64,000 nucleotides of DNA, taken from contig JABDHA010000002.1 in NCBI GenBank assembly GCA_013285705.1, positions 30,146 to 94,145 on the forward strand, written 5' to 3'. Shown here in pieces: positions 3,401-21,027 of this stretch. Below the pieces are notes generated by a model. The model was not told the DNA's origin, ran no database searches, and was given only the letters and a program-made list of their open reading frames with translations. This DNA is from Acidobacteriota bacterium (GTDB lineage: Bacteria; Acidobacteriota; Terriglobia; Terriglobales; Acidobacteriaceae). Position numbers and translations under genes: made by a program. Each line of letters starts with the position of its first letter. Position 1 is the stretch's first letter.

Positions 3401-3403
3401 CGC

Positions 3404-6017: not shown

Positions 6018-6536
6018 GATCACCTCTCCATGGATGAATCAGCTGACTTCGCGATGGGATAGCAGGTCTTTCGATTTCTTACGAATGCTCTGGATTTCGG
6101 ATGATAGTACATAACCCGTGCGCCTTCCGCAAGAGAATCATGAAATCCTGGAAGTAAGTCACGTGATGGGAGAGGATGTCTGCAATCCTGTGTTAGATCG
6201 GAATCTGTGGAGGACAAAGGAACTTGCAGGTGTGCGGTCTTCAGTTGACAGAGGAGAAGGCCTGCTTCTAAACCACCGGGTACTACGCGAAATCATACGC
6301 AATCATTCGTAACATAAGTTGTCGCGATCCAATGTAGAGGAAAATGCGATTCCGATCCACGACTGAAACAGAATTTCTCGCCGATTGACGGGTGAACACG
6401 GAACAACGCATAGACGAAACGTCTCTCATCTCGCTCTTTTCATACCCTCAGCAACAACCTCTTCAGCTTCAACGCCTTCTATATGAACAGCAAGATTGGA
6501 CCTTACCATCCGCTCCACACGATATATTAAATATTC
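6018..6536. other. Gap of about 520 bp without a recognisable gene
   Basis: This stretch separates two divergent genes and must hold both promoters. Short open frames here (for example plus-strand 6392-6634) have no family resemblance and overlap the start of the synthase in another frame. No tRNA, repeat or riboswitch was recognised. Confidence 0.5.
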
Positions 6537-7835
6537 ATGAGTGCCCGCTTACCAATAGAAGAAAGCACCTCCATAACCAGGAAAAATTTCCCCTCCTCTT
6601 CGGGACAGATGTTTCAGGACTATTTCGCCCGTGAGCGCGAAGACAGCTACAAAAAGCATGACCTCATCGATGCCCGGGCGCGAAGGCTGTTTGAGAATAC
6701 GGCACTAGCCTGTTCCCTGGATGCCTATCCGTTTCAAGCTCCATTGAGCACCAAATCAGGGCCTGAAGTGGAGATGGATGGTCACAGGATGTTGATGCTG
6801 TCGTCCTACGATTACCTGGGACTCATCGGGGATCGCCGTGTCGATGAAGCGGCCATTGCGGCGGTACGGAAATACGGTACAGGAACAGGGGGCGTTCGCC
6901 TGTTGACGGGAACGCTGGATCTCCATCAGGAGATGGAACAAGCACTTGCTGAGTTCAAGGGGACAGATGCGGCGATCACCTTCACTTCAGGATACGCGGC
7001 CAATCTGGCGGTGATCAGCGCTCTATTGGGGCCTGCCGATCGCGTCATTGCCGATGCACTCTCACACAGAAGCTTGATGGACGCATGCCGCCTGGCCGGA
7101 GTTCAGGTCCAAAGATTCAATCACAACGATCCGGCCTCTCTCCGGTATCAGTTGGAAAACGGACCAGAGGCCAACCGCACACTCATCATTTCCGATGGGG
7201 TGTTTTCCATGGATGGTGATATCGCCTGCCTTCCAGAACTGATTGCGCTGAAGAAAGAGTTTGACTGCTTTCTGCTGATGGATGAGTCGCATGCGAGCGG
7301 TGTGCTGGGCCGGCATGGCCGGGGAACCGACGAACACTTCAACATTCCGACAGCGGAGATTGATATCTGGACCGGTTCGCTGGCCAAGGCAATCCCTTCG
7401 AATGGCGGATTTGTAGCCGTTTCGCAACGGCTGGCGATCTTCCTGCAACATGCTTCCGCTCCTTTTATTTTTTCGGGCGCGATGGCAGCCCCGGCGGCTG
7501 CGGCGGTTTTGGAAACACTGAAGATTCTGAAAGAGGAGCCCGAGCGAGTCGCCCGGTTGCAGGCAAATGCGACGTTTCTACGCGAGGGCTTGCAAAGCCT
7601 CGGATACGACATCGGGTTATCGCAAACGTCAGTGATTCCGGTGATGCTTCATGACGATGCGAAAACGGCATTTTTTGCCCGAAAGCTGCGCGATCACGGA
7701 GTCCTTGTCTCGCCGGTGCTCTTTCCAGCAGTCGCGCAGGGCGCAGCCCGATTGCGCCTGTGCACCACAGCGGCCCATACACAAGACCACCTCCAATTTG
7801 CTCTGGACGTTTTTGCGAAGATGCGGAACGACTAA
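6537..7835 (+). CDS. Alpha-oxoamine synthase (serine palmitoyltransferase / AONS-like, PLP-dependent)
   Basis: A 432-residue fold-type I PLP enzyme of the family that condenses an amino acid with an acyl thioester and releases CO2 (KAPA synthase, serine palmitoyltransferase, CqsA). Family marks are YDYLGL, GTGTGGVRLLTGTLDLHQ, ADALSHRSLMDA, MDESHASGVLGRHGRG (cofactor-binding D and H) and the PLP lysine in TGSLAKAIPSNGG. A reductase lies 3 bp downstream, and a KAS/ACP pair faces it. This favours a lipid role such as 3-ketosphinganine formation over biotin synthesis, but the substrate is not proven. The start is uncertain: ATG 6537 has no clear ribosome-binding site, and ATG 6609 is possible. 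Confidence 0.82.
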   Translation: MSARLPIEESTSITRKNFPSSSGQMFQDYFAREREDSYKKHDLIDARARRLFENTALACSLDAYPFQAPLSTKSGPEVEMDGHRMLMLSSYDYLGLIGDRRVDEAAIAAVRKYGTGTGGVRLLTGTLDLHQEMEQALAEFKGTDAAITFTSGYAANLAVISALLGPADRVIADALSHRSLMDACRLAGVQVQRFNHNDPASLRYQLENGPEANRTLIISDGVFSMDGDIACLPELIALKKEFDCFLLMDESHASGVLGRHGRGTDEHFNIPTAEIDIWTGSLAKAIPSNGGFVAVSQRLAIFLQHASAPFIFSGAMAAPAAAAVLETLKILKEEPERVARLQANATFLREGLQSLGYDIGLSQTSVIPVMLHDDAKTAFFARKLRDHGVLVSPVLFPAVAQGAARLRLCTTAAHTQDHLQFALDVFAKMRND

Positions 7836-7838
7836 TCA

Positions 7839-8831
7839 ATGCCCGTATTCGTCACCGGAGCCAGTGGATTTCTGGGTGGCCGGCTCACGGAAATGCTCGC
7901 GCTCGCAGGGGAGCAGGTAACGGTACTGGCCCGGCCTACCTCCGACCTGCGGCATCTTTCCGGGCTCGCAGGGGTTCGGGTGGTGCTTGGAGATCTCACA
8001 GAGAACGCCGCGGTCGCGGAAGCCGCGCGCGGAGCCACACACATCTTTCATTGTGCGGCAACTTCTACCGACTGGGCGCCCATGGAGGTGTTTCTCCAGA
8101 GCAATGTGACGGGGACAGAGACATTGTTGGCTGCGGCGCAGCAAGTTCCCTGCCTGGAGCGCTTCATTCATGTCAGCACGACCGATGTTTATGGATATCC
8201 AGCGATTCCCTGCCCCGAGACAGGAGCGCTCCTGGACGTGGGTTTGCCGTACAACCGGACAAAGATCCTGGCAGAACAGACGGTGTGGCAAAGCTCACGG
8301 AATAGACTGCCGGTAACGGTCGTTCGACCGGCAACGATCTACGGTCCGCGCGGGAAAGCGTTTGTCAAAGATATCGCAGACCTGTTGCGGGTTCGTCAGA
8401 TGGTACATATCGGGGGTGGACAGGCGAGGGGTGGCTTTCTATATGTCGATAACGCTGTGGACGCGATGATCGCGGCAGCGCGTAGTCCGCAGACTGAGGG
8501 ACAGGCTTACAACCTGACAGACGGTACAGGAGTGAACTGGAAAATGTATGTAGCAGCGCTGGCCGACGGGCTGGGTTGCAAGCCGCCGTGGATCAATCTT
8601 CCCTATCGTGCTGCGATGGCCATTGCAAGCGCAATGGAAGCTCCGTACCACTGCTTCAGGAAGCTCCCGGGGCGGCCGATGCTTACACGCCACGCAGTCT
8701 CTCTGCTGGGGCGGGATCAGGAGTTCCCCAGCGACAAGGCGCGCGTGGAATTCGGCTTTACTCCACGGGTGTCCTTCGAGGAAGGAATATCCAGGTCCCT
8801 GGCGTGGCTAAAGGGCTTGAACCCAGCTTAA
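7839..8831 (+). CDS. NAD-dependent epimerase/dehydratase (3-beta-HSD-like short-chain reductase)
   Basis: A 330-residue extended short-chain dehydrogenase. The nucleotide-binding GASGFLGG lies at the N-terminus, followed by HCAATS, the active-site strand VSTTDVYG, the catalytic pair in YNRTK, and VRPATIYGPRG. It follows the oxoamine synthase by 3 bp, so the two are cotranscribed. In the known bacterial ceramide pathway an NAD-epimerase-family enzyme (CerR) reduces the ketone made by serine palmitoyltransferase, and this gene is in the right place for that step. It ends 4 bp inside the convergent KAS gene. Confidence 0.85.
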   Translation: MPVFVTGASGFLGGRLTEMLALAGEQVTVLARPTSDLRHLSGLAGVRVVLGDLTENAAVAEAARGATHIFHCAATSTDWAPMEVFLQSNVTGTETLLAAAQQVPCLERFIHVSTTDVYGYPAIPCPETGALLDVGLPYNRTKILAEQTVWQSSRNRLPVTVVRPATIYGPRGKAFVKDIADLLRVRQMVHIGGGQARGGFLYVDNAVDAMIAAARSPQTEGQAYNLTDGTGVNWKMYVAALADGLGCKPPWINLPYRAAMAIASAMEAPYHCFRKLPGRPMLTRHAVSLLGRDQEFPSDKARVEFGFTPRVSFEEGISRSLAWLKGLNPA

Positions 8832-10039
8832 GGAAAAACCTTGAAGGCGAGCGAGGCATTCAGGCCGCCGAAGGCGAACGAGTTCGAAAGGCAAGCCTCT
8901 ACCTGCGTTAATCGCGCCTGATTGGGAATAACGTCAAGGTCACAGCAAGGATCGGCGGTGAGGTAGTTTGCAGTGGGTGGCAACGCCCCATGCTTGAGGC
9001 TAAGGGTGCTGACGACGGCCTCAAGAGCACTGCTGGCGCCCAGGGCATGACCGTGCATGGATTTCGTGGAGCTGATCGCAAGCTTGTCAGCATGCGGGCC
9101 GAAGACATTACGGATGGCAGCAGTTTCGATGCGGTCGTTGGCCTCCGTCGCTGTTCCGTGGGCGTTTATATAGCCAATCTGCTCAGGCGCCAACCCGGCG
9201 TCGCTAAGAGCGAGGCGCATGGCACGACTGGGTCCGGTGGCGACAGGCTGCGTGATGTGACTTGCATCCGCGGACATGCCGAAGCCGATAATCTCAGCAA
9301 GAGGATGCGCGCCGCGGGCAAGGGCGCTATCGAGGGGTTCAAGCACGAGCATGGCGGCGCCTTCGCCCAGAATCATGCCACTGCGCTCGGCGGAAAATGG
9401 GCGGCAGGTGTCTTTGCTGATCACTCGCATCGCCTCCCATGCCTTGAGACCGCCAATAAAAAAAGGAGCTTCGCTGCCTCCGGCAATCGCCAGCGGAGCG
9501 GCTCCGGAACGGACCATCCAGAAGGCCTGGCCAATCGCGTGGGCGGAAGAGGCGCAGGCGGTAGAAATGGTATAGGCAGGCCCTTCAATGCCGTACTGCA
9601 TACAGATATGGCTCGCACCTGCGTTCCCCATACTGAGCGGAATGGTGAGAGGATGGACCCGGTTTTTATTGTTGTGAAAGAGTTCCCAATAGCCGCTGTC
9701 TTCGACCGCCCGCCCTCCAAGGCAGGATCCGGTAATGACTGCGGTAGTTTCGCGCAGGTTCGTCGTCCACTCTATGCCCGCTTCGGTAATGGCCTGGCGA
9801 ACGGCGACGACCGCGAATTGCGCAAAGCGCTCCATGAAGCCTATATCTCTGGCCTCGAAGTGCTCTTCTGGCTTGTATTCCCGTATTTCCGCAGCGTTCT
9901 TGAAGCGGACCTGCGAGGTGTCGACGCTGGTGATCTCTCGAATGGCGGAAGTGCCTGAAAGCAAAGCCTGCCAGAAGCTGGCAGTGCTGTTGCCGAGGGC
10001 GCTCACCACGCCGGTTCCGGTAATGACGACGCGGCGCAC
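8828..10039 (-). CDS. Beta-ketoacyl-ACP synthase (KAS II-like)
   Basis: About 403 residues of thiolase fold. The nucleophile is in the TACASSAHA loop. The two catalytic histidines are in NAHGTATEAND and STKSMHGHALGASSALE, and the C-terminus has NSFAFGGLNASL. The enzyme elongates acyl-ACP by decarboxylative condensation. I place the start at GTG 10039 (VRRVVITGTGVVSALG), 1 bp after the ACP stop at 10041. An upstream in-frame ATG at 10096 would lie inside the ACP gene and add 19 residues with no family match. It is convergent with the reductase gene. Confidence 0.9.
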   Translation of the reverse strand: MRRVVITGTGVVSALGNSTASFWQALLSGTSAIREITSVDTSQVRFKNAAEIREYKPEEHFEARDIGFMERFAQFAVVAVRQAITEAGIEWTTNLRETTAVITGSCLGGRAVEDSGYWELFHNNKNRVHPLTIPLSMGNAGASHICMQYGIEGPAYTISTACASSAHAIGQAFWMVRSGAAPLAIAGGSEAPFFIGGLKAWEAMRVISKDTCRPFSAERSGMILGEGAAMLVLEPLDSALARGAHPLAEIIGFGMSADASHITQPVATGPSRAMRLALSDAGLAPEQIGYINAHGTATEANDRIETAAIRNVFGPHADKLAISSTKSMHGHALGASSALEAVVSTLSLKHGALPPTANYLTADPCCDLDVIPNQARLTQVEACLSNSFAFGGLNASLAFKVFP

Positions 10040-10040
10040 G

Positions 10041-10307
10041 TTATTCAGTGGGCGAAGAATCTGTCTTCGCCTGGACCAGATGGGTGACACCTTCAATCAT
10101 TTCGTGAATGTTCTGGACCTGCTTGGCTTCCTCGTCGTTGATCTCGATGTCGAACTCGCTTTCAAGGTCAAAAAGGATGTTCAAGCGATCCAGCGAATCG
10201 ATCCCGAGGGATTCAAAGCTGCTGTCGGGATGCACATTCTCTATGGGCACACGTTTCGAGGTCGCAATAACCTTCAAAACTCTATCTTCGATGGTCAGGC
10301 CGGTCAA
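10041..10307 (-). CDS. Acyl carrier protein
   Basis: An 88-residue acidic protein with the phosphopantetheine attachment serine in LGIDSLDRLN, preceded by the typical HPDSSFESLG helix-I/II linker. It carries acyl intermediates for the adjacent ketoacyl synthase, and perhaps for the oxoamine synthase across the locus. The only in-frame start is a TTG at 10307, with no strong ribosome-binding site. It is the first gene of a two-gene minus-strand unit with the KAS gene. This looks like a dedicated pathway ACP; the housekeeping acpP normally sits beside fabF in the fatty-acid cluster. Confidence 0.9.
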   Translation of the reverse strand: MTGLTIEDRVLKVIATSKRVPIENVHPDSSFESLGIDSLDRLNILFDLESEFDIEINDEEAKQVQNIHEMIEGVTHLVQAKTDSSPTE

Positions 10308-10546
10308 TGTCAGGAATGGTCCTTGTACGCGATCAATACCGATCCACGTGGGTGCTTAGTCTCTCCAATTTTATCCTGATTTTCGCATCTGACTGAAATA
10401 AGACGATCCACTCCCCAAGAAATCTGACCTGCAGTCGCAAGATACAGTAAAGAGGCCGTCGGGTGTCACTCGGTAACTCTGTGTTCCAAGATGCTTCATT
10501 TAACGCCACAAATGAAAGTGACCCGCGGACGAGTACACTGTGGGCT

Positions 10547-11890
10547 ATGACTGTTCCGGCACGAACATTAGGCGCCTTGAATCTGGAGATCCGTGAATCG
10601 CTGATTGCACGAGCGGTTCAGTTGCCTGTGCAGCAGTTCATTCACACACAGGGCGTTAGCAGCGCATTTCTTCTTGTTGCTTCGGTTGCAGCGCTCATCT
10701 GGGCAAATTCTCCGTGGAGTGCTTCCTACTATCACATCTGGCACATCAAGTTGACCTTGTCCGGATTGCAGCTTCCCATTCACGAGTGGATCAACGATGC
10801 CATGATGGCCCTGTTCTTTTTCCTGGTTGGCATGGAGATCAAACAGGAAATCGTCAACGGTGAGCTGTCCGACCTGCGGCGCGCCTCGCTGCCGATTTGT
10901 GGCGGGCTCGGCGGCATGGTCGTGCCCGCTTTGATCTTTAGCGCCATCAATCGCGGCAGACCGGGTGCCCACGGATGGGGAGTGCCCATGGCGACCGACA
11001 TCGCCTTTTCATTGGGGGTACTCGCGCTGGTAAAGGGGATTCCGGCAGAATTAAAGGTCTTTTTGTTATCGCTGGCTATCGCGGATGACATCGGTGCCAT
11101 TACCGTCATCGCTGTTTTCTACACGGAGACGCTGTATCTTAACTACCTCTTCATTGCAGCTCTACTCCTCGCCGTTATTCTGCTTTGTCGAAAGATCGGT
11201 TTTGGACGGCAAATTCTGTATGTCGCTCTCGGTTTCGGCTTCTGGCTGGCAATTTTGCGATCAGGCGTGCACGCCACAATTGCCGGGGTGATTCTTGGCT
11301 TCCTTGTGCCGGTCAAATCCCAGGTCTCACTTGACGACTTCGATGAACTCAGCCGGCAGACGATGGACGAGTTTCGCAAAGCCCGCGCCGCAGGCGACAC
11401 ATCTCTCGCAGCCCGGCAGCTGGGCGCAATGGAGTATCTGATTGCGAATACCGAATCTCCAGCCGATCGCGTCACACGAAAGCTTCACGATTGGATCGCC
11501 TATCTGATTCTGCCCCTCTTCGCTCTTTCGAATGCAGGCGTGACATTCTCGTCGAATATATGGCAATCCCTGATGCACAGCTCTGTTGCCTGGGGCGTGC
11601 TCCTGGGACTATTTGTCGGCAAGCCAATTGGCATCTTCGGAGTATGTTGGCTGGCAGTAAAGCTGAAAATCGCGCAGCTTCCAAAATCAGTGCGATGGAG
11701 CCACATTGGAAGCGTGAGCATGCTCGCTGGAATCGGCTTCACCGTATCGCTGTTTATTAGCGCGCTCGCCTTTGACGACGGCGCTCAACTGGATGCAGCG
11801 AAGACAGCGGTTCTGGTCGCATCGCTTCTGGCGGGCGTATCCGGATATATGCTGTTGAAACGTGTTGCCGGAATCTCAAAACAGGCATAA
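10547..11890 (+). CDS. nhaA: Na+/H+ antiporter NhaA
   Basis: About 447 residues with 10-12 membrane spans. The family signatures are MMALFFFLVGMEIKQE, VPMATDIAFSLG and the paired aspartates of the ion-binding site in SLAIADDIGAI, with GIGFTVSLFISALAF near the C-terminus. It exchanges Na+ for H+ across the inner membrane. The reading frame extends upstream to an ATG at 10463, but the ATG at 10547 (MTVPARTL) gives a family-like N-terminus. It is a single gene directly upstream of the tRNA-Ser gene. Confidence 0.95.
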   Translation: MTVPARTLGALNLEIRESLIARAVQLPVQQFIHTQGVSSAFLLVASVAALIWANSPWSASYYHIWHIKLTLSGLQLPIHEWINDAMMALFFFLVGMEIKQEIVNGELSDLRRASLPICGGLGGMVVPALIFSAINRGRPGAHGWGVPMATDIAFSLGVLALVKGIPAELKVFLLSLAIADDIGAITVIAVFYTETLYLNYLFIAALLLAVILLCRKIGFGRQILYVALGFGFWLAILRSGVHATIAGVILGFLVPVKSQVSLDDFDELSRQTMDEFRKARAAGDTSLAARQLGAMEYLIANTESPADRVTRKLHDWIAYLILPLFALSNAGVTFSSNIWQSLMHSSVAWGVLLGLFVGKPIGIFGVCWLAVKLKIAQLPKSVRWSHIGSVSMLAGIGFTVSLFISALAFDDGAQLDAAKTAVLVASLLAGVSGYMLLKRVAGISKQA

Positions 11891-11979
11891 GCAATCTCTA
11901 GTGAGTTCGCAACATATTTCACGATTCCGCTGGACAATGGTACACTAAGGCTACCGCCTAAGTCATTGATAGTAAACAT

Positions 11980-12071
11980 GGAGAGGTGGCAGAGCCCGGT
12001 TGAATGCACCTGACTCGAAATCAGGCATGGGGGTAACTCCATCGGGGGTTCGAATCCCTCCCTCTCCGCCA
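11980..12071 (+). tRNA. tRNA-Ser (anticodon CGA)
   Basis: The acceptor stem GGAGAGG/CCTCTCC, a CCTGA/TCAGG anticodon stem with loop CTCGAAA (anticodon CGA), a long class II variable arm, the TTCGAAT T-loop and an encoded CCA (12069-12071) are all visible. The last 20 nt plus one flanking base are duplicated at 21007-21027, so its 3' end is the attachment site of the integrated element. Confidence 0.97.
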
Positions 12072-12072
12072 G
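12052..12072 (+). repeat. attL core (21-bp direct repeat with attR)
   Basis: The sequence GAATCCCTCCCTCTCCGCCA plus a final G recurs exactly at 21007-21027. This copy is the T-arm and acceptor end of tRNA-Ser, so integration leaves the tRNA intact. The next gene is the integrase. Confidence 0.93.
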
Positions 12073-12086
12073 AATCTGGCTACCCT

Positions 12087-12102
12087 TTAAAGTGTTGATT
12101 CC
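12087..12102 (+). repeat. Left copy of a 16-bp inverted repeat just inside the att sites
   Basis: TTAAAGTGTTGATTCC here reappears in reverse complement at 20966-20981, 15 bp inside attL and 25 bp inside attR. With the TAGTACA copies (12131, 12151, 20911, 20921), this layout resembles integrase or excisionase arm sites. Confidence 0.6.
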
Positions 12103-12166
12103 ATTACTTATTTCTGTCCTCATTTTGCCGTAGTACAGAGCAAACGGCTTTAGTACACTGAGCGGC

Positions 12167-13309
12167 ATGGAAAACCCCAGTGTCTACAAGCGGTTCATAG
12201 AGCAAACGGTCAAACCGTCTAAGCGCCCGAAGCTGTTTTGGTACTGTCGCACTCCTGAGGGTTGGCGCTATCTCACCGATACCACTGAGAACCGTAAACA
12301 CATCCAGGGCAGACATGTAATCCGGGAGAACATCTCCGTCGACGGTAAAAGCAAACGAATCTATACGCCTCTCAAAGAGAACGAGACGCCCCAGCAAGCG
12401 TTACAGAATGCGATGCTACGCGCCGTCAGCGCTGCTCGAAAGAGAGTACCCACAAAGACACATGACGGGCTTAAAAAGGCAATGAACGATTACATCGCAG
12501 ACCGTGAAGCTCATGGCAAGTTAGAGGCAGCGGAACACGCGAGGCATACGCTACCGGAGTTTCGGTCTATCTGCCCTCAGGTGTCGACGGTCACCGGGGT
12601 GACTCGCCAACATCTCACCGCATTTTGTGCAGCGCTACGAAAGCGGGGGCAGAGTCCTCGAACCGTGAGCAACAAGTATGACCGCATTCGCTCATTCCTG
12701 AAGTTTGCCGGGAGCGATGTCCAGCTATCGAAAAGTGATCGCCCAAAGTTTGATAAGACGTTGCCGACAACGTACACGAAAGCGGAGACGGACGCGCTAC
12801 TCGCACACGCTACCGATTACATGAAGGTCGTCATCTGCCTCGGATTGCAATTAGGTCTTCGGGATCAAGAGATGATGCACGCGGAATGGGACGATATCGA
12901 CAGAGAGCACAGAACGTTTCGAGTCAAGAGTAAGCCTGTTTATGATTTCGGAGTAAAAGATGCAGAAGAAAGGGATATCCCGATACCGGCATCCCTGTTC
13001 ACAATGCTCAATAAGTGGCGTGAGAGTCGCCCTGGCACATCGCTGATACTTGGAGTGGGTGAAGAGTTCCAGAACACGAACGGGCATCTCCTGAGGACGC
13101 TACAGCGTATGGCGAAGCGTTGCAATGTCGAGAACGCCACTCTGCACAAACTGCGCCGAACATATCTCACTCGCTTATTGCAGTCGGGAACAGACATCCG
13201 AACCGTTCAAGCGTTCGCCGGTCACGCTGACTTGGAATCAAGTATGCGTTATCTGAGACCGGCAGGAGCCAAAGAGATGCTGTCTCACGTCGACGCTATT
13301 GATTGGTAA
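12167..13309 (+). CDS. int: Tyrosine recombinase (phage-type integrase)
   Basis: A 380-residue site-specific recombinase. The N-terminal part (to about residue 90) is poorly conserved. A SAM-like core-binding domain follows (residues 95-185, with LTAFCAALRKRGQSPRTVSNKYDRIRSFLKF-type helices). The catalytic domain has the box I arginine in LGLRDQEMM, HKLRRTYLTRLLQ, the histidine in FAGHADLESSMRYL and the tyrosine nucleophile in MRYLRP. It lies next to the tRNA-Ser attachment site and faces the rest of the element. It presumably recombines the 21-bp att core. A strong hairpin terminator follows its stop. Confidence 0.93.
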   Translation: MENPSVYKRFIEQTVKPSKRPKLFWYCRTPEGWRYLTDTTENRKHIQGRHVIRENISVDGKSKRIYTPLKENETPQQALQNAMLRAVSAARKRVPTKTHDGLKKAMNDYIADREAHGKLEAAEHARHTLPEFRSICPQVSTVTGVTRQHLTAFCAALRKRGQSPRTVSNKYDRIRSFLKFAGSDVQLSKSDRPKFDKTLPTTYTKAETDALLAHATDYMKVVICLGLQLGLRDQEMMHAEWDDIDREHRTFRVKSKPVYDFGVKDAEERDIPIPASLFTMLNKWRESRPGTSLILGVGEEFQNTNGHLLRTLQRMAKRCNVENATLHKLRRTYLTRLLQSGTDIRTVQAFAGHADLESSMRYLRPAGAKEMLSHVDAIDW

Positions 13310-13344
13310 AAAAAAGCTGCCCTCCAGTCCGAAGACCAGAGGGC
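13307..13344 (-). terminator. Rho-independent terminator between int and the tape-measure remnant
   Basis: On the minus strand, an 11-bp stem (13319-13344, two G-T wobbles) with a TTCG loop is followed by a run of T (complement of A-run 13307-13315). It would end minus-strand transcription of the phage module. The hairpin may also act on the integrase transcript. Confidence 0.8.
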
Positions 13345-13353
13345 GCAAGAGTT

Positions 13354-13584
13354 TTATCTTCTGTGACTCGGAGGAAGTCGACTGTTTTGATCTGCTTTAG
13401 CCTTTATCGCGTCCATGACAGAGCGCTGATGCGTTGCCTGTAGACCCTTAATTACCGCTGCCTTCGTCAACTCGGGGTTCGTCGAGTGGCGTGCGTCGAT
13501 TGAGTAATTGTGTGTTGTTCCACCGAAACCCGATTTCGAGTTTGGAATGATCGTCCCTGCTTTTTTCGGGACGAATAATTCAGG
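13354..13584 (-). pseudogene. Tail tape-measure protein, C-terminal exon (exon 2)
   Basis: Encodes PELFVPKKAGTIIPNSK through SIDARHSTNPELTKAAV to a basic C-terminus. This is the usual ending of siphophage tape-measure proteins (GPELFVPxxxGTIIPN, then an IDAR motif). Joined across the 239-nt intron at 13585-13823, it continues the upstream fragment as SIVGEQG-PELFVPK with no gap and in frame. An independent TTG-initiated frame (13587) exists but is more likely an artefact of the intron. Because the upstream exon is frameshifted and lacks its N-terminal bulk, the gene is probably non-functional. Confidence 0.75.
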
Positions 13585-13823
13585 CAATAATGTTGCGATA
13601 TAACCGTGTCCGTTATATCTCTCACCGTTGCCGATGAGTTCAGGTCATCTCTTCACCCTGTTAGGGTGTCTTCCATTTCGCGAACACTGTTCGCTACGTG
13701 CCGAAGCACTGACCGTCACACGTTCCCTTTCGGGCTTCGCTCGGTATTGTCTCCATGTGGAGAGGTTCACCGAATTAGAAAGATTATCGAATAGCATTGC
13801 TGCTACAAGGGGCCATTGAATTA
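13585..13823 (-). ncRNA. Group I intron, 239 nt, no internal ORF, in tape-measure gene
   Basis: Read on the minus strand, the insert follows exon ...GAACAGGGT and ends in G before CCTGAA, the U/G boundaries of group I introns. P1: exon GGGU with the first intron bases pairs to UGGCCC. P3: 13778-13783 with 13669-13674. P4: 13769-13773 with 13741-13745. P5 hairpin: 13751-13762. P6a: CCC-GAAA-GGG, 13725-13734. P7: GGUCA 13710-13714 with UGACC 13643-13647. P7.1: 13698-13709, UUCG loop. P7.2: 13680-13694. P8: 13654-13668. P9: 13621-13638. P9.1: 13597-13619. P7.1/P7.2 point to subgroup IA, common in phages. Splicing activity is untested. Confidence 0.85.
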
Positions 13824-13948
13824 ACCCTGTTCACCTACAATCGACATTTGATTTACGGGCGGTTCCCCTCCGTCCGCGAACCCTAAACCAGAAAACAATG
13901 CAGCGCCTGCGGCCTTACCTAGCAGCCCGCTTAGACCACCAGTAAGCT
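13824..13948 (-). pseudogene. Tape-measure protein, exon 1 end in shifted frame
   Basis: Reading the minus strand in the frame one base back from the upstream ORF gives GKLTGGLSGLLGKAAGA, then GFADGGEPPVNQMSIVGEQG, and reaches the intron boundary. GFADGG...SIVGE is the standard run-up to the tape-measure C-terminus. The upstream ORF stops at 13931 in the other frame. A single missing base near 13945-13955 would explain this, so the gene carries a frameshift. Confidence 0.75.
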
Positions 13949-14761
13949 TGCCAATGTGCCGCGCACAGCACCGCCTATATCGGACATACTGAAGCCACCA
14001 AGGCCACCTTTACCGGAACCACCTAATCCGCTTAAACCGGGGATGCCACCGACAATCTTTACCGGCATCGGCTGCTTCCCAAGTCCGAACGCACCCAGTA
14101 ACCCGCCCTCTGCCTTCTGTAAGCCTGCTTTCCCTATCGTTCGCAAACCATTAGCGGCAGCGTTCTTGATGTTCTTTCCAAACTGTCCGCGCTTGCTGTC
14201 GAGTAGAGCGTCGTTGAAGTCTTCAATGAATTTACCGAAGGTCTGCGTCAACACTTGAGGCATATTCACCGTAAGCATCTGTTGTAGCTGTGCGAGTGAA
14301 GTTGTCGAGCTAATGCTCTGGTTATCGCTCTGTACCTGCACCTGTCGGTTTGCCTGGACGGTAGCAATCTGCCTGCCCACGCGCTGCGATTCCGCAACAT
14401 CTCCTACACCATCGGCAGCACGTTGCTGCTGCTGAAGGTCAGAGAGGGCTTGGGTATAAACTTTTGTATTCAAAGTGGCCAAAGAGATTGCGGCAGCATG
14501 GGCCGATACCGCCCCAGTAGAGAGCTGAAACGATATCGATTGCTCTGCTAGGCTGTCCGCACCGTGCCGTTGAATGTCTGCGAGGTCGTCCTGGTATTTA
14601 GTTAGTTCATCGGATAGCATGATTTCGCCGGATGCGGAACCATGTCCACCACCAACTAAGTAATTCCACGCTGCCACTGAATTGAGTGGAATGGACGGTC
14701 GGTCTAGCATGTTGCGTTGTTCTGTTTTGCGTCCACTAAAGGCGCGAGTTAAAAAACTCAT
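13931..14761 (-). pseudogene. In-frame chimera: portal protein N-terminus fused to tape-measure C-terminal region
   Basis: A 276-codon ORF. Residues 1-45 (MSFLTRAF..., MLDRPSIPLNSVAAWNYL, a Gly-rich patch) look like the start of an HK97-type portal protein. From about residue 46 onward the sequence is helical and Gln-rich (QALSDLQQQQRAADG, RQIATVQANRQVQVQ) and then GGLLGAFGLGKQPMP, which fits the C-terminal third of a tape-measure protein. The portal remainder, protease, capsid and tail genes that normally lie between are absent, so a large internal deletion joined the two in frame. It starts 3 bp after the small terminase stop. The portal call rests on a short N-terminal match. Confidence 0.6.
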
Positions 14762-14764
14762 CGT

Positions 14765-15424
14765 TTATGCGGTTCCTTTGTCTGGGTAGGCGAGTGCTCG
14801 CCATTGCTGCCATAGTTCGTTGGCCAATACTTCGTTGCCTTCGGCTTGCGCTTGTCGCTGCCTCTTGTAGAGGTCTTGCATTCGCTGTGTGCGGTCCTGA
14901 TAGGCGATGACGTAAGCACGTCGTTCTTCTATCTCTGCCCTGAATGGTGCTTGCTCGGATTCGGTGAACCTGCTCATCATGTCGTCAAGGTCACGCTCAC
15001 TCAGAGACATATCGAGACAGAACTGGATATCAGCCTGGAGTTGCTTGTCGACAACCGGTTGTAATTCTTTGGGCAGCGATTCAGGGGCCGAAGGACGCTT
15101 CTTCTCTTTCTTGTCGATTGCTGCAAGCGTCCGCTGAAGTAACGCCAAGTCGGCGCGTGTCGCTTCTGTTTTGGGATTCCGCATCTTGGCGGTAAGCGTG
15201 GCAGCGAGTTCGACATCTAACCGGTCAGCGGCAGTGAGCCACGGTCGCGTACTCGATATTTCTGCCCATGCAGTCTTCGCACCCTGGGGAAGTCTCACCG
15301 GTGGATCGCCAAGGGGATCGCTGGGCGCACTTTGTGCGGTCAACCGCTCCTTGTAGCGCTTCGGATTCTGTTTCAGCGTCCCTGAGAGGGACAATTCGTC
15401 TAAACTCTTGCGTTTTCGTCCCAT
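14765..15424 (-). CDS. Phage terminase small subunit, P27 family
   Basis: 219 residues. The N-terminus LSLSGTLKQNPKRYKERL followed by DPLGDPPVRLP, a Trp-containing AWAEI helix and WLTAADRLDVELAA is the P27-family small-terminase signature. The C-terminal half is charged helix. In a phage it recognises packaging DNA together with the large subunit, whose gene should follow but is missing here. The ribosome-binding site is GGAG 6 nt before the ATG. Transcription probably starts at the promoter at 15479-15508, which is overlapped by inverted repeats. Confidence 0.85.
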   Translation of the reverse strand: MGRKRKSLDELSLSGTLKQNPKRYKERLTAQSAPSDPLGDPPVRLPQGAKTAWAEISSTRPWLTAADRLDVELAATLTAKMRNPKTEATRADLALLQRTLAAIDKKEKKRPSAPESLPKELQPVVDKQLQADIQFCLDMSLSERDLDDMMSRFTESEQAPFRAEIEERRAYVIAYQDRTQRMQDLYKRQRQAQAEGNEVLANELWQQWRALAYPDKGTA

Positions 15425-15464
15425 AGGGTCTCCAAGTTAAAGTAAACAAAGGGTATTTCACCTT

Positions 15465-15521
15465 ATGTTACGCGTCGTAACATATTGATACCCTATGTAG
15501 TTAGTCAACGTAACTCGTTGA
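15465..15521 (-). promoter_or_regulatory. Promoter with overlapping operator-like inverted repeats, upstream of small terminase
   Basis: On the minus strand, TTGACT (15503-15508) and TATGTT (15479-15484) are 18 bp apart. A perfect 8-bp inverted repeat ATGTTACG-CGT-CGTAACAT (15465-15483) covers the -10, and TCAACG-N5-CGTTGA (15505-15521) covers the -35. This is the layout of a repressor-controlled phage promoter. The repressor is not identified. Confidence 0.6.
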
Positions 15522-15862
15522 AAAAACATCATTTATAAAGTTGCCAAGAAAGTTTGACTATGCCACGGTCGGCGCGGCTTGGGATTTCTGAAGATTAAAA
15601 GCACCCCTGGGGCGGGGTCTGCAATCGTTGCTCAAAGGCGAGATGTTACATGTTAGAAGTCACAGCAGACACAACGATAATCTCTCGAAAAACCGTTGTG
15701 TCCGCCAGATGAGACCGCTTGAGATCGGGTGACTTAAGTCCGACCTTGTGTCTCGCTTGCCTGAAGTCGTATGTGGAAAAGGAGAACTACCACGACACAA
15801 CAGGCGACGATTGCAGGGGAAAGAACAGTACAAACCCTGGTCGTCCATTCCGGGAATCAGCC
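15522..15862. other. Gene-free stretch between phage-module promoter and the HTH gene
   Basis: About 340 bp. Short frames on both strands (for example plus-strand 15719-15979, Cys-rich) lack ribosome-binding sites and family resemblance. Beyond the promoter just to its left, nothing convincing was seen. Confidence 0.4.
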
Positions 15863-16195
15863 TTATCGCTGCCGGGAATCCTTTGTCAAAGTTTGAAACT
15901 TCAATGTGTAAGTGTGTCGTGCGATCTTACCGCGTGCACTTGCTTTAGATTTCTTGCCACGCGAGTACGGCATTGGTAGAACGGGGAAAATGAATCCTTT
16001 GTCTGTTAGCTCCTGGCGTGCTCGCTGAAGGAAATCAACATTGATTCCGGCATCGCGTGCGAGCTTCGTATTCGTCCAAGAGTGTGACAACATACCTTGC
16101 CGGGTATCGGGTGGCACTTTTGCGTTAACCTTGCGTATCACCTTGCGTTCAAGATGTTTTAGCAGTCTCGCTGCCTCAAGTGATAAAGGCTTCAT
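15863..16195 (-). CDS. Small winged-helix/HTH-like protein
   Basis: 110 residues, basic. The central SWTNTKLARDAGINVDFLQRARQELTDKGFI reads as a helix-turn-helix with a recognition helix, followed by a KKSKASARGK basic patch. It may bind DNA as a regulator or replication accessory. No specific family was recognised. The ATG overlaps the preceding stop (ATGA), so it is translationally coupled to the 16192-16590 gene. It belongs to an operon that begins at the 71-bp repeat promoter near 16841. Confidence 0.65.
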   Translation of the reverse strand: MKPLSLEAARLLKHLERKVIRKVNAKVPPDTRQGMLSHSWTNTKLARDAGINVDFLQRARQELTDKGFIFPVLPMPYSRGKKSKASARGKIARHTYTLKFQTLTKDSRQR

Positions 16196-16590
16196 CGGAT
16201 GCCTGCCGCGATACTCATCGGATGGAAGTCACGTCCGCGTTTACGACGGACAGATAGCAATACCTGAGTGAACCTGAACAGGGAATCGTCAAGCGCTGTC
16301 ATAAGCACTTGGCACATGTTGTTGGGAATCGTGCCGGGAACATACCCTGTAAGCAATTCCGGGTATTCGTCTTGTAGTTCCTCAATCAATATCGCTGCGA
16401 TGGCTTGTGATCGCCATAGACGGTCGTAATGGTGCTCGGCTACTTCCTGTCCATTCCTTATGCGTTCGGTATCTGCCACGAAGGTATTAAGCACTTCTGT
16501 GTAACAGGCCGCGTTTTCGTCGAACTCCAGAGTTTTTACCCACTTCAGCACATCTAAGGCGAGCAGGCGTTGACTTTCAATTGTTCTCAT
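16192..16590 (-). CDS. Hypothetical element protein, 132 aa
   Basis: Not recognised. A helical, mildly acidic protein (ESQRLLALDVLKWVKTLEF at the N-terminus, AIAAILIEELQDEYPELL in the middle) with a basic C-terminal end. The start is well supported by GGAGGAG upstream of the ATG. It is the middle gene of a three-gene unit (16836 to 15863) and overlaps the next gene by 4 bp. No signal peptide or membrane segment. Confidence 0.65.
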   Translation of the reverse strand: MRTIESQRLLALDVLKWVKTLEFDENAACYTEVLNTFVADTERIRNGQEVAEHHYDRLWRSQAIAAILIEELQDEYPELLTGYVPGTIPNNMCQVLMTALDDSLFRFTQVLLSVRRKRGRDFHPMSIAAGIR

Positions 16591-16620
16591 GTGTCTGCTC
16601 CTCCACAGTGCAGTTGGTAT

Positions 16621-16836
16621 TTATGCTTGTGCTGGCTTGTCGTATATAAATGCACGCATCGCTTGGCAACTTAGGCTGAACTCTTTGGCGAGTTCGGCAA
16701 TCTGCCACTGTTCAGCTTCACTGAGCAGGTGCGCGTTCTCTCGGACGACCGCAAAGAATGTGGTCCAATTTGTGGTATCGGTGACGATGTCAATCAAAGT
16801 CTGTCGTAGTTCTTCGAGTTCGATGTCGTTTGTCAT
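16621..16836 (-). CDS. Hypothetical small element protein, 71 aa
   Basis: Not recognised. An acidic helical protein beginning MTNDIELEELRQTL, with NAHLLSEAEQWQIAELAKEFSLS, which could be a compact HTH or a helical bundle. The ATG at 16836 is chosen over a longer frame (16893) because GAGGGAGA lies just before it and the extra 19 residues are the 71-bp repeat read as protein. It is the first gene behind repeat copy 1. Confidence 0.65.
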   Translation of the reverse strand: MTNDIELEELRQTLIDIVTDTTNWTTFFAVVRENAHLLSEAEQWQIAELAKEFSLSCQAMRAFIYDKPAQA

Positions 16837-16840
16837 TATG

Positions 16841-16911
16841 TCTCCCTCACCTATATAGGAAAAAACGGGGGGTAAATGTCTCAAGAAGGTCAATCTTTTT
16901 TCAACTATTTT
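16841..16911 (-). promoter_or_regulatory. 71-bp repeat, copy 1 (promoter/leader of small-protein operon)
   Basis: Identical over 71 bp to 17732-17802. On the minus strand it runs from an AAAATAGTTGA box through TTGACC and TTTACCCCCC to the palindrome CCTATATAGG and the ribosome-binding site GAGGGAGA, ending 4 bp before the ATG at 16836. TTGACC lies 30 nt from TATATA, which does not fit sigma-70 spacing, so the polymerase form using it is unclear. Confidence 0.65.
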
Positions 16912-17216
16912 TTATCTGCCCTGTATCACCGCACAAAGTGCGTTCGATAGGGGTCGCGCCAAGGGGATCGGCCAAAGGGTCGGAGATTGTAGTCGCTGTG
17001 GTCGATGTGTACTTTTGACTGAGGATTCCCGGTTGGGTGTTTCCTCGCGCGCGGGTACGCGTAGATTACGTAATAGGACACTCGAAAACCTTACGGTTTT
17101 CTCGGTCTTTTAGTAATCGTACTTAGAGAACTAAAGAAATAAATATCTAGGCAGAAAACGTACTTAGAACACGTTTTAAGTTCAGCGTCTGAGGTAATCT
17201 CAGCCTTATTAGGGCC
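16912..17216. other. Non-coding stretch downstream of the large RNA
   Basis: No ORF. It contains the near-palindrome CGCACAAAGTGCG (16930-16942, also at 15326 and 19681). A 7-bp hairpin at 17084-17101 has a GTAA loop on the minus strand. A CTGAG/CTCAG hairpin lies near 17190-17205, and CTAAGTACG occurs twice near 17110-17160. Confidence 0.5.
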
Positions 17217-17742
17217 AAAAAAGCATCAACACCGTCCAAGTACGCAATCCCCGTTATCTCTAACGAAAATAAACCATCTATCTACCGCTTTTGTTAGTTA
17301 CGGTAGATAAGGCTTCTTGGTGGTGTTGGCTTACGGTCCTGCATGGTTTGATGGGTTGTTAGTCCACCAGCGCGTTCTCAGGTTCCGTGCGCTGTAAATC
17401 CGGAACCTAACCATGTCAGCCGCTCAGTGCGTGTATCCCTTTTATCGCAGCCAATCTGCTGCCCTCATAATCACGTACGGATACAGGGACCTATGCCCTC
17501 TGAGGTACGGTTTTATTTTCGACGGTTTGCTCCGTCAAGGGCCGCTTGCCTCTCATCGACTAAACGACTCCACGGGGATACCTGGGTCTAAGATACGGTC
17601 GTGATCTGCAACAGTCCTGCATTCGTCCTCAATGACACGTCAGGGATCAACTTTCGATATGCACGCGGGACGATGATGCCGCCCGGCTTTGACTCCGGGA
17701 CTTTTGGTGTGGTGAGAGAGTTCTAATATCTTCTCCCTCACC
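17217..17742 (-). ncRNA. Candidate large structured non-coding RNA, about 526 nt
   Basis: This minus-strand region has no ORF but many perfect hairpins. The 5' stem is 10 bp (17733-17742 with 17711-17720). Others are CCCGG/CCGGG (17682-17699), GACGG/CCGTC (17521-17536), GCAGC/GCTGC (17447-17462), an 8-bp stem (17380-17387 with 17401-17408), a 7-bp stem (17281-17287 with 17301-17307) and CGTTA-GAGA-TAACG (17252-17265). An 11-bp closing helix (17221-17233 with 17322-17332) is followed by six T (17217-17222), like a terminator. It starts directly behind repeat copy 2. Size and prophage setting recall ROOL or GOLLD RNAs, but I cannot match either by eye. Confidence 0.6.
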
Positions 17743-17802
17743 TATATAGGAAAAAACGGGGGGTAAATGTCTCAAGAAGGTCAATCTTTTTTCAACTATT
17801 TT
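17732..17802 (-). promoter_or_regulatory. 71-bp repeat, copy 2 (putative promoter of the large ncRNA)
   Basis: An exact copy of 16841-16911. Here no start codon follows. Instead its last 10 bases form one arm of a 10-bp hairpin with the following sequence, so it appears to launch an RNA rather than a gene. The adjoining TGTAAACCCTCTG (17802 on) recurs near 19574. Confidence 0.65.
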
Positions 17803-17830
17803 GTAAACCCTCTGTAATCAACACGTGTGT

Positions 17831-18829
17831 CTACTGAGCGTCTTCGTCCTCCGGAGCCGTCTCGGGGACCGTAAGCGCATTTTGTGCACCTGTGGCCATC
17901 ATCCTGGCACGTGTCCGTTCCCTGATCTTCAGTTGTGAGTTGTACTCAGCATCCCGTTCCGCCAGCCTTGCGTTCCTGTCCGCGTGATACTCCTCGCGTT
18001 CGGGTGCAACCTTTTTGCGTATCCGGTAAAAGATGTTTCGAACGGCTTGCTCTGACTTCCCCATTTCCCGGGCAATCTCCTTGTCGCTCAGGCCGTCCAT
18101 TGTCAACTCGGCTGCCCAACGCTCGTGACCCTCAAGAGATTCCGGTATCAAATACTCACCGAAGGCGTACCCTTTGCCCACACCCATAATCATGTTGACG
18201 ATTTCGGGATTGTCGCGAGTCTCAGAGTATTGGCCTTCATCATCGTCTATGTCGACATCGAACGATACGGGAACGTGTGTTGCTCTGTTCTTATTGCGGT
18301 CTCGACGAGCTTCATGAAGGCGGTTGGTGCAGATGGTGTTAACCAACATCTCGAACTCCGTGGAATCGCCCTCGAAGGTGGCCATACGTTCCCAGACTGC
18401 GATTAAAACTTCCTGTGTCCAGTCGCACGCATCCAGCATCTGGCCGTCTGCTCCGCGCCCCTGATCCATTTCCTTATCGAACGAATAGAGGCGTTGCTTG
18501 GCGCGGTCCTCAACAGCTTTGAGTAGCTTGCTTTCGCTCCCTGAGAGGAGCCATGTGTAAAAGCCATCGCTTATGCGTTGCGAGATGGACCGCTTCTTAC
18601 TTTTGGGCCGTGGTGCGTCTACGATCACGTGATCGCTGCTCAGTCCCACATCCTCAGGTGTCAGCGTGCGAACCTCACCGTGGCCGCCTGCTACACGCTT
18701 GGCTTCGCTTCGTGCTACCCGCTTCGCTTCCTTCTCTTGCTCCTTTAGCCATTCGGCAGCTATGTCCTGCTCACGTTCTTGTTCCTCTAATTCCAACTGC
18801 TTCTCATCTTCCGGGTTGTCAAAATACAT
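17831..18829 (-). CDS. Element-encoded sigma-70-like (ECF-type) factor with long charged flanks
   Basis: 332 residues. After a charged, Glu-rich N-terminal region there is a sigma region 2-like block (DWTQEVLIAVWERMATFEGD, then MLVNTICTNRLHEARR). A region 4-like HTH follows (ELTMDGLSDKEIAREMGKSEQAVRNIFYRIRKK). ECF sigmas are usually under 220 residues, so this one has extra arms. The ATG at 18829 is 8 nt after AAAGGAG and is preferred over upstream alternatives. A sigma-70-type promoter (19064-19092) and an attenuator-like leader lie upstream. It could transcribe the non-consensus repeat promoters of the element, which is inference. Confidence 0.75.
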   Translation of the reverse strand: MYFDNPEDEKQLELEEQEREQDIAAEWLKEQEKEAKRVARSEAKRVAGGHGEVRTLTPEDVGLSSDHVIVDAPRPKSKKRSISQRISDGFYTWLLSGSESKLLKAVEDRAKQRLYSFDKEMDQGRGADGQMLDACDWTQEVLIAVWERMATFEGDSTEFEMLVNTICTNRLHEARRDRNKNRATHVPVSFDVDIDDDEGQYSETRDNPEIVNMIMGVGKGYAFGEYLIPESLEGHERWAAELTMDGLSDKEIAREMGKSEQAVRNIFYRIRKKVAPEREEYHADRNARLAERDAEYNSQLKIRERTRARMMATGAQNALTVPETAPEDEDAQ

Positions 18830-18916
18830 GTCATGGTCTCCTTTAAATTGAATTGCGCCCATTCAAGAGCTTGTGTTTGGTTCGGTTTCATACTGCGTGA
18901 TCGTCAAGCGGGCAAT

Positions 18917-18992
18917 AAAAAAGCCCACCTATAAGGTGAGCGCGTGTCGTCATGGATAGAGGCCATCCGTTCTCGGTATATCAGGCGCTCAC
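18917..18992 (-). promoter_or_regulatory. Attenuator-like leader: mutually exclusive terminator and anti-terminator before the sigma gene
   Basis: On the minus strand, GCTCACCT (18934-18941) pairs with AGGTGGGC (18923-18930) and is followed by six T (18917-18922), a rho-independent terminator. Upstream, GTGAGCGC (18985-18992) is perfectly complementary to GCGCTCAC (18936-18943), which contains the terminator's 5' arm. Only one structure can form. A further hairpin lies at 19024-19041. The sensed signal is unknown. Confidence 0.65.
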
Positions 18993-19063
18993 GTTTTCAT
19001 CGGTACATCCTTTTTGGGGGTCATCTGGTTTGGAGACCAGAGACACCTGTGACTACTATTCCT

Positions 19064-19092
19064 AGAATATCAAACGGGCAACCCGAAGTCAA
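19064..19092 (-). promoter_or_regulatory. Sigma-70-type promoter for the sigma-factor leader
   Basis: TTGACT (19087-19092) and TATTCT (19064-19069) on the minus strand are separated by 17 bp. Transcription from here would give a leader of about 225 nt holding the attenuator-like structures before the ATG at 18829. Confidence 0.65.
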
Positions 19093-19707
19093 GACTTATC
19101 CTCGGATGCACCATTTCTAGGGCACAAACCGAGTCATCGCCACGTTGCCCTGTAGCGCGTCCGTTTTCGCTTACTGTGGGATTGCCTGTCCGAGAGGCTA
19201 CAAGTCGAACCTGGGCCGGTCAGCGCCTTACCGTGAGCGATGCCAATATCGGTATCTGACCATAGCTGGCCATTTTCCAAAATTAGGCTCTCAAGGGAAC
19301 TTGGCTTTGGAATTATATACTCTCCTACTAATATATACGGAAATATCAGGGGTAAAACCTTCGAATAAATCAACTATTTTCACTTTTTTTCAACTATTTT
19401 CGAGGGGTCAAACCATTCAATGCGGAAAAGCTACCATTCAATGAAAAACTGTCCGAATGTGGACAAAATTGTGCAATATTACTCGTTGCAACAAATGCCC
19501 ATAAAATGGTGCAATCGTGTATTTATTACACGTATTAGTCGTTGCAACAGTTAAGCATAGCTAACCCCAAACATGTAAACCCTCTGGAATCAGTGGGACT
19601 CCTAAGTTGCTTAGGTATACGATGGCAGGGCGATAATAGGGCGCGAAGGTGGGTTTCGTCGAGAGGTCTGACCAGTTGAGCGCACTTTGTGCGCGGCTCG
19701 GAGCGTT
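19093..19707. other. AT-rich regulatory stretch with diverged third repeat copy and iteron-like boxes
   Basis: A diverged relative of the 71-bp block covers about 19311-19400 on the minus strand, keeping the AAAATAGTTGA boxes, TTTACCCC and a TATATA 30 nt from TTGATT. Behind it a 59-codon frame (19134-19313) has ATT where copy 1 has ATG. Further right are GTGCAAT (19471, 19509), palindrome GTTGCAAC (19485, 19541), inverted repeat CGTGTA/TACACG (19516-19532), CCATTCAATG twice, and CGCACTTTGTGCG (19681-19693). It is a candidate operator or replication region; no gene was accepted. Confidence 0.5.
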
Positions 19708-19929
19708 TCAATCTCCCTTAGAAATCCACACACCATCTTTCTCCAATGCGTCTTCTATATCGGGCCACTTAAGCCCGGAGAATTGTCTAAGCCTCTCAGA
19801 AAGGCCGACTAGGCTTACTTCCTCGTAAGAGCGCTCCCCAAAGGAGAGTTCTCCCAAGATTGCTACATAGCGAATGTTGACCTTTTCTGCGGTCGTAGCA
19901 GCCAGCTTGTAAATACGCATCTTTACCAT
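19708..19929 (-). CDS. Hypothetical small element protein, 73 aa
   Basis: Not recognised. The composition is that of a soluble protein (AATTAEKVNIRYVAILGELS, then ERLRQFSGLKWPDIEDAL, ending in KDGVWISKGD). The last part resembles small domains with a repeated D/E-GVW ending, but no family is assigned. The start is either the ATG at 19929 or the one at 19920. The ribosome-binding site is weak. It stands alone on the minus strand. Confidence 0.5.
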   Translation of the reverse strand: MVKMRIYKLAATTAEKVNIRYVAILGELSFGERSYEEVSLVGLSERLRQFSGLKWPDIEDALEKDGVWISKGD

Positions 19930-20034
19930 GCCGTCATGCTATGCCGGTGCAGCGACATGCGACACCAGATAACACCCTGCGGCGTCTATTGGGCCAATCG
20001 ATAGTAATGGGGCAGATGGGAGTCTTCTATTTGA

Positions 20035-20325
20035 CTAAATGAGTGAGTACCACGCATTGAAGAGACTGTTGCCAATATTGTTCCGCAGCATCAAGGCAGC
20101 CTTCTCTGCTATTCCTCTGTCCGGCAAAGGTGTTGGAAATTCGTAGTTGTATGATTGCCCTCCGGACGTGCATCTGAATGCAAATGTATAGGTACCAGAA
20201 TCCGCCCGGATTAGGGTGATGGGGAACACTTCCGTTATCGTTGCCAGTTCTGGCGCGACGCCTGTATTGCCCCTGTAAACATCACCTGGTGTAGGAGGAT
20301 GCGCAGAAAAATCACTCAGTCTCAT
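20035..20325 (-). CDS. Hypothetical element protein, 96 aa
   Basis: Not recognised. A beta-rich small protein (FPITLIRADSGTYTFAFRC, then SYNYEFPTPLP) followed by a helical C-terminus (IAEKAALMLRNNIGN). The ATG at 20325 has GAAGGGA upstream and is preferred over a longer frame to 20403, whose extra residues are not protein-like. No signal peptide or membrane segment. Confidence 0.55.
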   Translation of the reverse strand: MRLSDFSAHPPTPGDVYRGNTGVAPELATITEVFPITLIRADSGTYTFAFRCTSGGQSYNYEFPTPLPDRGIAEKAALMLRNNIGNSLFNAWYSLI

Positions 20326-20570
20326 CGTTTTAAAATCCCTTCGTGAATAACTTAGCGCATTCTCACTGGCACCAACGAAAGTAGGTGTAAAGATGCGGAA
20401 CACACAAACTAAAACGGCACCTGGAAACGTTCACCAGATGCCGTGATCTTGTCGGGGTCACCAAATTTCCGAGCGACCCCCGTAGGCGCTTGCCAGAGCG
20501 ACATTGAATTGTGACGCGGGATCGGGGATCGTTACAGATAATCTTTCTGCCCAGAGTCTCTAAAAAAGAC

Positions 20571-20600
20571 TTGACACAAAAAATAAATGTGACATATAAT
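20571..20600 (+). promoter_or_regulatory. Perfect consensus sigma-70 promoter
   Basis: TTGACA (20571-20576) and TATAAT (20595-20600) with an 18-bp spacer, both hexamers fully consensus. It lies 57 bp upstream of the small Cys-rich gene, the only apparent plus-strand gene at this end of the element. Confidence 0.85.
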
Positions 20601-20657
20601 GCGCCGCTCATGTTATCGTGATTTCACATCCCAACTAGGGATCGAGGAAAACGAATA

Positions 20658-20888
20658 ATGGAAACTACTATCGTGAAATGCTGCGAATGCGACGAAACCG
20701 GCACCAAAAACGATCTCACACCGTGCCACCAATGTGGCCGATACATGTGCATTCGGCACTGCTGCAAGTGCGATGTCACGATCTCTTCAGCCGAGGAGTG
20801 GAAAGAGTCTTTCGTCAACCCCGTACCCACAGACGCCACGTTTCCGATGGTGCTGTCTTTCGATGCCCTGGGTGAGTTGCTCGGTTGA
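20658..20888 (+). CDS. Small cysteine-rich, probably zinc-binding protein, 76 aa
   Basis: Contains CCEC near residues 8-11, CHQC at 23-26, and CIRHCCKC at 31-38, an arrangement typical of a double zinc knuckle or treble-clef fold. The rest is short and acidic. GAGGAAAA precedes the ATG, and a perfect consensus promoter lies upstream, so strong constitutive expression from the integrated element is likely. The function is unknown. It is placed just inside attR, where elements often keep accessory or maintenance genes. Confidence 0.7.
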   Translation: METTIVKCCECDETGTKNDLTPCHQCGRYMCIRHCCKCDVTISSAEEWKESFVNPVPTDATFPMVLSFDALGELLG

Positions 20889-20965
20889 ATGGGCAGAGAT
20901 AGGACATGTGTAGTACAGCGTAGTACAGTCACACTTTAGCAGAATAATTAAGCGTAACACCAATG

Positions 20966-20981
20966 GGAATCAACACTTTAA
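20966..20981 (-). repeat. Right copy of the 16-bp inverted repeat inside attR
   Basis: Exact reverse complement of 12087-12102. Two TAGTACA boxes (20911-20917, 20921-20927) lie just left of it, mirroring two near the integrase (12131, 12151). Confidence 0.6.
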
Positions 20982-21006
20982 GGCATCTGATGGCGGAATC
21001 TATAGA

Positions 21007-21027
21007 GAATCCCTCCCTCTCCGCCAG
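21007..21027 (+). repeat. attR core (21-bp direct repeat with attL)
   Basis: An exact copy of tRNA-Ser 3' positions 12052-12072, with different bases on both sides. No other tRNA arms are present, so this is an attachment-site remnant and not a tRNA gene. Confidence 0.93.

Follow-up and report, generated by a model that had tools for sequence, protein, structure and literature searches.

A portal/tape-measure fusion in a tRNA-integrated island of an Acidobacteriota genome, probably the scar of one deletion in a capsid-carrying phage satellite

Phage satellites differ in how much of the virion they encode themselves. The cfPICIs, as described, carry genes for the two terminase subunits and for head-tail connectors (PMC10690885), and putative satellites of E. 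coli have been described that carry capsid and tape-measure genes without a terminase (PMC10448857). How do such elements arise? Origin by phage reduction and origin by acquisition are treated as unsettled, and a reductive model has been set out (PMC11389934). Our literature search returned no paper pairing Acidobacteria with phage satellites.

The window analysed here is a stretch of 64,000 nucleotides from a 94.8-kb contig of an Acidobacteriota draft genome (4.47 Mb in 229 contigs, 59% complete). It contains an island of 8976 bp (9.0 kb, 12052-21027) bounded by two perfect copies of a 21-bp direct repeat, attL at the 3' end of a tRNA-Ser (cga) gene (12052..12072) and attR at 21007..21027, neither with a strand. 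The tRNA gene (11980..12071, plus strand; tRNA call and Rfam tRNA) is the integration target, and the full-length ORF of a 380-aa tyrosine integrase adjoins attL (12167..13309, plus strand; PF00589, E 6.7e-21; phrog_1). Nearly all other notable features are on the minus strand, and the coding fraction of the island is 59%. Among them is a terminase small subunit (TerS) of 219 aa (14765..15424, minus strand; PHROG 83, E 3.8e-6 over residues 1-82), which also resembles the annotated TerS of relatives of Pseudomonas phage D3. The preliminary description of this DNA had stated that the terminase large subunit (TerL), most of the portal, and the capsid and tail genes are gone. This was borne out, as PHROG, Pfam and TerL profile searches of the island found no TerL, intact portal, capsid or further tail gene, the absence of TerL being based on one TerL profile and a Pfam scan of selected ORFs. 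AlpA and primase gave no match in PHROG, Pfam and profile searches, no phage replication, lysis or tail gene could be recognised in the right-hand half with PHROG or Pfam, and PADLOC reported no credible defence gene.

The island is therefore not an intact siphophage prophage, which would have TerL, portal, capsid and tail genes. Like a PICI or SaPI with TerS, it is an att-bounded element of satellite size (about 9 kb) that has an integrase and a TerS-type packaging redirector, with neither TerL nor a full set of particle genes of its own. Unlike those elements, it has no recognised stl/alpA/pri-rep module, a sigma-70-like protein being found instead, and its TerS is D3-type-related. It shares with the cfPICIs integration at a tRNA, satellite size and an own integrase, and its relatives have portal, protease and capsid genes. 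It differs from them in that TerL is missing, as in the TerL-less relatives described below, and in that AlpA and a primase/replicase are missing too; of the head genes only portal residues 1-48 are left. A TerL-bearing prophage was not found in the island's own genome, which at 59% completeness may still hold a helper.

What lies behind the TerS gene? An ORF of 276 aa (13931..14761, minus strand) begins 3 bp past the TerS stop, preceded by a Shine-Dalgarno-like AAAGGA. It was compared with portal and tape-measure protein (TMP) profiles made from intact relatives, 24 TMPs in the latter case. The portal N-terminal profile matches residues 6-48 with E 2.5e-7, the only match among 750 window ORFs; the next best window ORF reached E 0.43, and none of 500 shuffles of the chimera's first 60 residues fell below 3. 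Residues 51-270 match the TMP profile (positions 440-675 of 785) with E 4.7e-33. The limits of the two matches place the junction between residues 48 and 51, at about 14609..14620 on the minus strand. In pairwise alignment, residues 13-48 of this HK97-type portal N-terminus are about 45-51% identical to the portals of the loci L014, L041 and L013, while residues 62-273 are 28% identical to L013 TMP 453-692. The TMP half also matches L107 TMP 454-659 (30%, E 5.6e-12) and the TMP of L041. The portal/TMP fusion behind the small terminase, as first proposed from the sequence, is thus real: it consists of a portal part (residues 1-48), a TMP part (residues 51-270) and, at its end, a few out-of-frame residues. 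Matches to DUF6409, DHH phosphoesterase and Cas6e were weak or below curated cut-offs, lay largely on coiled-coil TMP sequence and were rejected.

Is the fusion a new working protein? Phage satellites can interfere with helper morphogenesis, and a portal arm on a TMP rod might poison the assembly of the helper's portal or tail, with the frame kept by selection. The 276 open codons close behind TerS and the Shine-Dalgarno-like sequence would suit such a role. We consider this very unlikely. Conservation of the 276 residues as one unit, the sign of a genuine protein according to the preliminary description, was sought in 299 genomes of the class, IMG/VR, GTDB contigs and phage records and not found, in whole-chimera searches that used a single sequence and reach best among close relatives; one genome, G139, matches the TMP half only (chimera residues 61-268). 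In the structure model, residues 1-53 have a pLDDT of 31-37 and are followed by a helical rod, with no compact fold, and the C-terminal end is frameshifted TMP. Selection for an open frame is also not needed, because a single deletion keeps the frame in one third of cases.

The TMP coding sequence runs past the 276-aa ORF, in the order of a frameshift, about 45 codons, an intron and the last 76 codons. Thus the early view that the ORF ends in a TMP C-terminal region holds as to its TMP derivation, but the extreme C-terminus is separate, at 13354-13584. The frameshift is located at roughly 13940-13990, and the frame translations give ...LTGGLSGLLGKAAGAALFSGLGFADGGEPPVNQMSIVGEQG for the coding sequence that follows it. 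The 45 or so TMP codons in this frame, which differs from that of the chimera (13824..13959, minus strand), show 42% identity over 40 aa to L013 TMP 678-717. After a stop, TMP coding resumes about 240 nt on as PELFVPKKAGTIIPN..., the 3' exon with the last 76 codons and the stop (13354..13584, minus strand; 35% to L013 TMP 718-797), and the ORF 13354-13587 matches TMP profile positions 709-785 with E 9.6e-23. The two parts are separated by a group I intron of about 239 nt without an ORF (13585..13823, minus strand). The region 13621-13832 matches RF00028 with 56.4 bits (E 1.8e-12), above the gathering score of 50, and the fold of the intron beats 199 of 200 shuffles (z -3.6). The bounds of the intron were set by the exon junction at L013 TMP 717|718, so that it lies in a broken tape-measure gene, exactly at the conserved GEQG|PELFVP motif; judged from the sequence, splicing would join the exons in frame as GEQG-PELFVP. 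In its score, the U before it, the G at its end and its place in a conserved phage-gene motif it resembles the Rfam RF00028 introns, but it is small, has no homing endonuclease and sits in a broken host gene. A search of 139 other genomes of the family did not find it, and no intron of this kind occurs in seven related loci.

A sequencing error may account for the frameshift. A more far-reaching doubt would be that portal and TMP reads were misjoined in a metagenome-assembled genome and that the frameshift is a base-calling error. That the genome is a draft of 229 contigs, 59% complete, and that a second copy of the locus was not seen would leave room for it. However, portal and TMP share no evident repeat that could join the assembly graph, the locus runs without a break from one perfect att repeat to the other on a 94.8-kb contig, flanked on either side by chromosomal genes, and the intron junction is exact. 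We consider an artefact very improbable.

From what kind of element, then, does the fusion derive? Loci whose portals are related, in the host's family and in IMG/VR, were classed by gene content. Most are phages with the order TerS-TerL-portal-protease-MCP...MTP-TMP. Five lack TerL although portal and capsid genes are present, and neither a TerL profile nor a Pfam scan of their larger ORFs found a terminase large subunit: L014, L123 and L125 from genomes of the host's family, L041 from the host's genus, and L107 from an IMG/VR metagenomic contig. Four of the five are flanked by direct repeats at a tRNA and span 13-16 kb: L014 (16.1 kb, 55-bp att), L107 (13.1 kb, 45-bp att), L123 (15.1 kb, 23-bp att) and L125/L131 (about 15.6 kb, about 49-bp att). 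L041 has the order portal-protease-MCP-connector-TMP; no att was found for it and its far end was not located. The four bounded elements have intact head genes, and MCP, portal and protease of their own, as in cfPICIs, are present in L014, L123, L125 and L041. L107 runs integrase ... TerS - portal - MCP - TMP, with TerS (PF05119), portal (PF04860) and capsid (PF05065), and the tape measure is full-length in both L107 and L041. In L014 a tail-tube-like gene lies between TerS and portal. The TerL-less rows occupy five places in the portal tree, a count that includes the less certain L129, which is not bounded and was set aside. L014 and L125 form a supported clade in which portal, protease and MCP are all full-length (46, 51 and 37% identity between the two), and this suggests that TerL-less elements persist over time, though exchange of head genes between elements could also explain the similarity.

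The preliminary description had also called for intact relatives. TerL-less elements with portal and capsid were found, but no close relative of the island, so the ancestral order proposed here is drawn by analogy. Given these elements, we think it probable that a single large deletion in a TerL-less, capsid-carrying satellite left the fusion behind as an in-frame scar, not as a new working protein. The ancestor would have been of the class TerS - portal - [protease] - capsid - ... - TMP, as in the same bacterial family. Elements of this type would bring an integrase for their integration and respond to induction by a helper phage. They would supply portal and capsid themselves and take the tail from the helper, and their TerS would steer the helper's TerL onto satellite DNA. 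A single deletion would then have joined portal codon ~48 to TMP codon ~440-450, with about 4 kb lost from an L107-type order, to leave TerS - [portal 1-48 | TMP ~450-end]. The island would no longer make a head while retaining integrase, att sites, TerS and regulators, and would now be at best, by analogy with known families, a TerS-only satellite packaged in helper particles. Its fusion product, for which no new function is predicted, would be decaying, as the frame breaks before the end of TMP and the group I intron interrupts what remains of it. Residues 1-53 of the chimera lack a confident fold and only 59% of the island is coding, which is why we take the fusion for a scar and the island for at most a TerS-dependent satellite. 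The earlier alternatives of degradation or a satellite thus pointed in the right direction, with an att-bounded island and a frameshifted TMP remnant. Two deletions, or a rearrangement plus selection, which had been considered necessary, are not: the absence of TerL need not mean a second deletion in view of the TerL-less relatives, and one deletion from an L107-like order suffices, in frame one time in three. Against this reading, the portal N-terminus of L107 gives no significant match to the chimera; those of L041 and L014 do match, but neither locus has both TerS and TMP.

Another origin would be a decayed temperate siphophage, in which one deletion took TerL, another joined portal to TMP, and the remaining tail and lysis genes were lost. 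The majority of portal-bearing loci in the family are TerS-TerL-portal...TMP prophages, the TMP resembles those of phages, for example L013 (28%), and decay agrees with the low coding density and the frameshift. Against it, two or more deletions would be required whose clean ends lie 3 bp apart, replication, lysis and tail genes are not recognisable in the right-hand half, and satellite-sized TerL-less elements recur in the family. We regard this origin as possible but rather unlikely. TerL might still have been present once in the lineage of the island and lost later, given its presence in L124, which has a related integrase and a tRNA-Ser site. L124 (G123:C1:2510000-2529900, 2378-16128), of the same family, is a cfPICI-like element of 13.7 kb with a 19-bp att at tRNA-Ser, TerS-TerL-portal-protease-MCP and an integrase. 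The integrase was at first taken as a sign of satellite kinship, with full-length relatives of 34-37% in L123 and L124; its subfamily also occurs in islands without phage genes, so it carries little weight for origin and was dropped.

In view of the putative E. coli satellites (PMC10448857), elements that combine capsid genes and a TMP without TerL are not an entirely new find. Among published elements these come closest to L107 and L041, with capsid and TMP, most tail genes missing, att at a tRNA and no TerL. The E. coli elements differ in lacking any terminase gene or protease and in having RepA_N initiators, whereas L107, L014 and the window retain TerS, a protease occurs in some of the present elements, and the hosts are Acidobacteriota. 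Our tentative proposal is that Acidobacteriota host recurrent, several-times-evolved satellites that have their own portal and capsid, often TMP and TerS, and rely on a helper's TerL, and that the window may be a fossil of the step of reduction that comes next, the conversion of a capsid-making satellite into a TerS-only one by a single deletion. A scar that keeps both ends of the lost block, beside TerL-less relatives with intact heads, would make a reductive path concrete and testable. What is more, TerL-less capsid satellites with TerS and TMP predict a satellite head filled by the helper's motor.

The TerS ORF is intact and its core, residues 1-110, is confidently modelled (pLDDT 84.6 for the model), with a C-terminal extension past about residue 110 modelled as helices. 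Foldseek gave no significant match for the model, the extension has no relatives in 250 genomes of the family, and neither TerS nor the sigma-like protein has relatives in viral contigs. C-terminal TerS extensions were seen in two TerL-less elements (window TerS, 14768-15124; L014 TerS, 5450-6013) and not in TerL-bearing phages.

Upstream of TerS are a 110-aa helix-turn-helix protein (15863..16195, minus strand; HTH_36, below cut-off) and a 132-aa protein to which PHROG and Pfam assign no function (16192..16590, minus strand); aligned with the portal neighbours in L123, L125 and L014, the two showed no convincing homology. A small gene with its ATG at 16836 (16621..16836, minus strand) follows a repeated leader of 85 bp, whose copies (16841..16925 and 17732..17816, both minus strand) are 93% identical and 891 bp apart, near the gene of a sigma-70-family-like protein of 343 aa (17831..18862, minus strand; Sigma70_r4_2, E 7e-6; Sigma70_r2, E 3.7e-4; phrog_1740, E 1e-7). 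This protein had only weak, generic sigma-factor matches in 250 genomes. Sigma-70-like or sigma-region helix-turn-helix proteins recur in L125 (13232-14503, minus strand), L129 (4199-4852, plus strand) and the window (17831-18862, minus strand). The 16-nt motif AAATAGTTGAAAAAAR has three copies in the window, where none would be expected, all in the island on the minus strand, including 19384-19399; lying next to the sigma-70-like gene, the leaders and the motif are possibly element-specific promoters. The same genome carries a second integrase, 42-44% identical to that of the island (L164, G000:C12:1-7723), which is followed by resolvase-like, DNA-methyltransferase-like and Vsr-like ORFs, assigned by eye.
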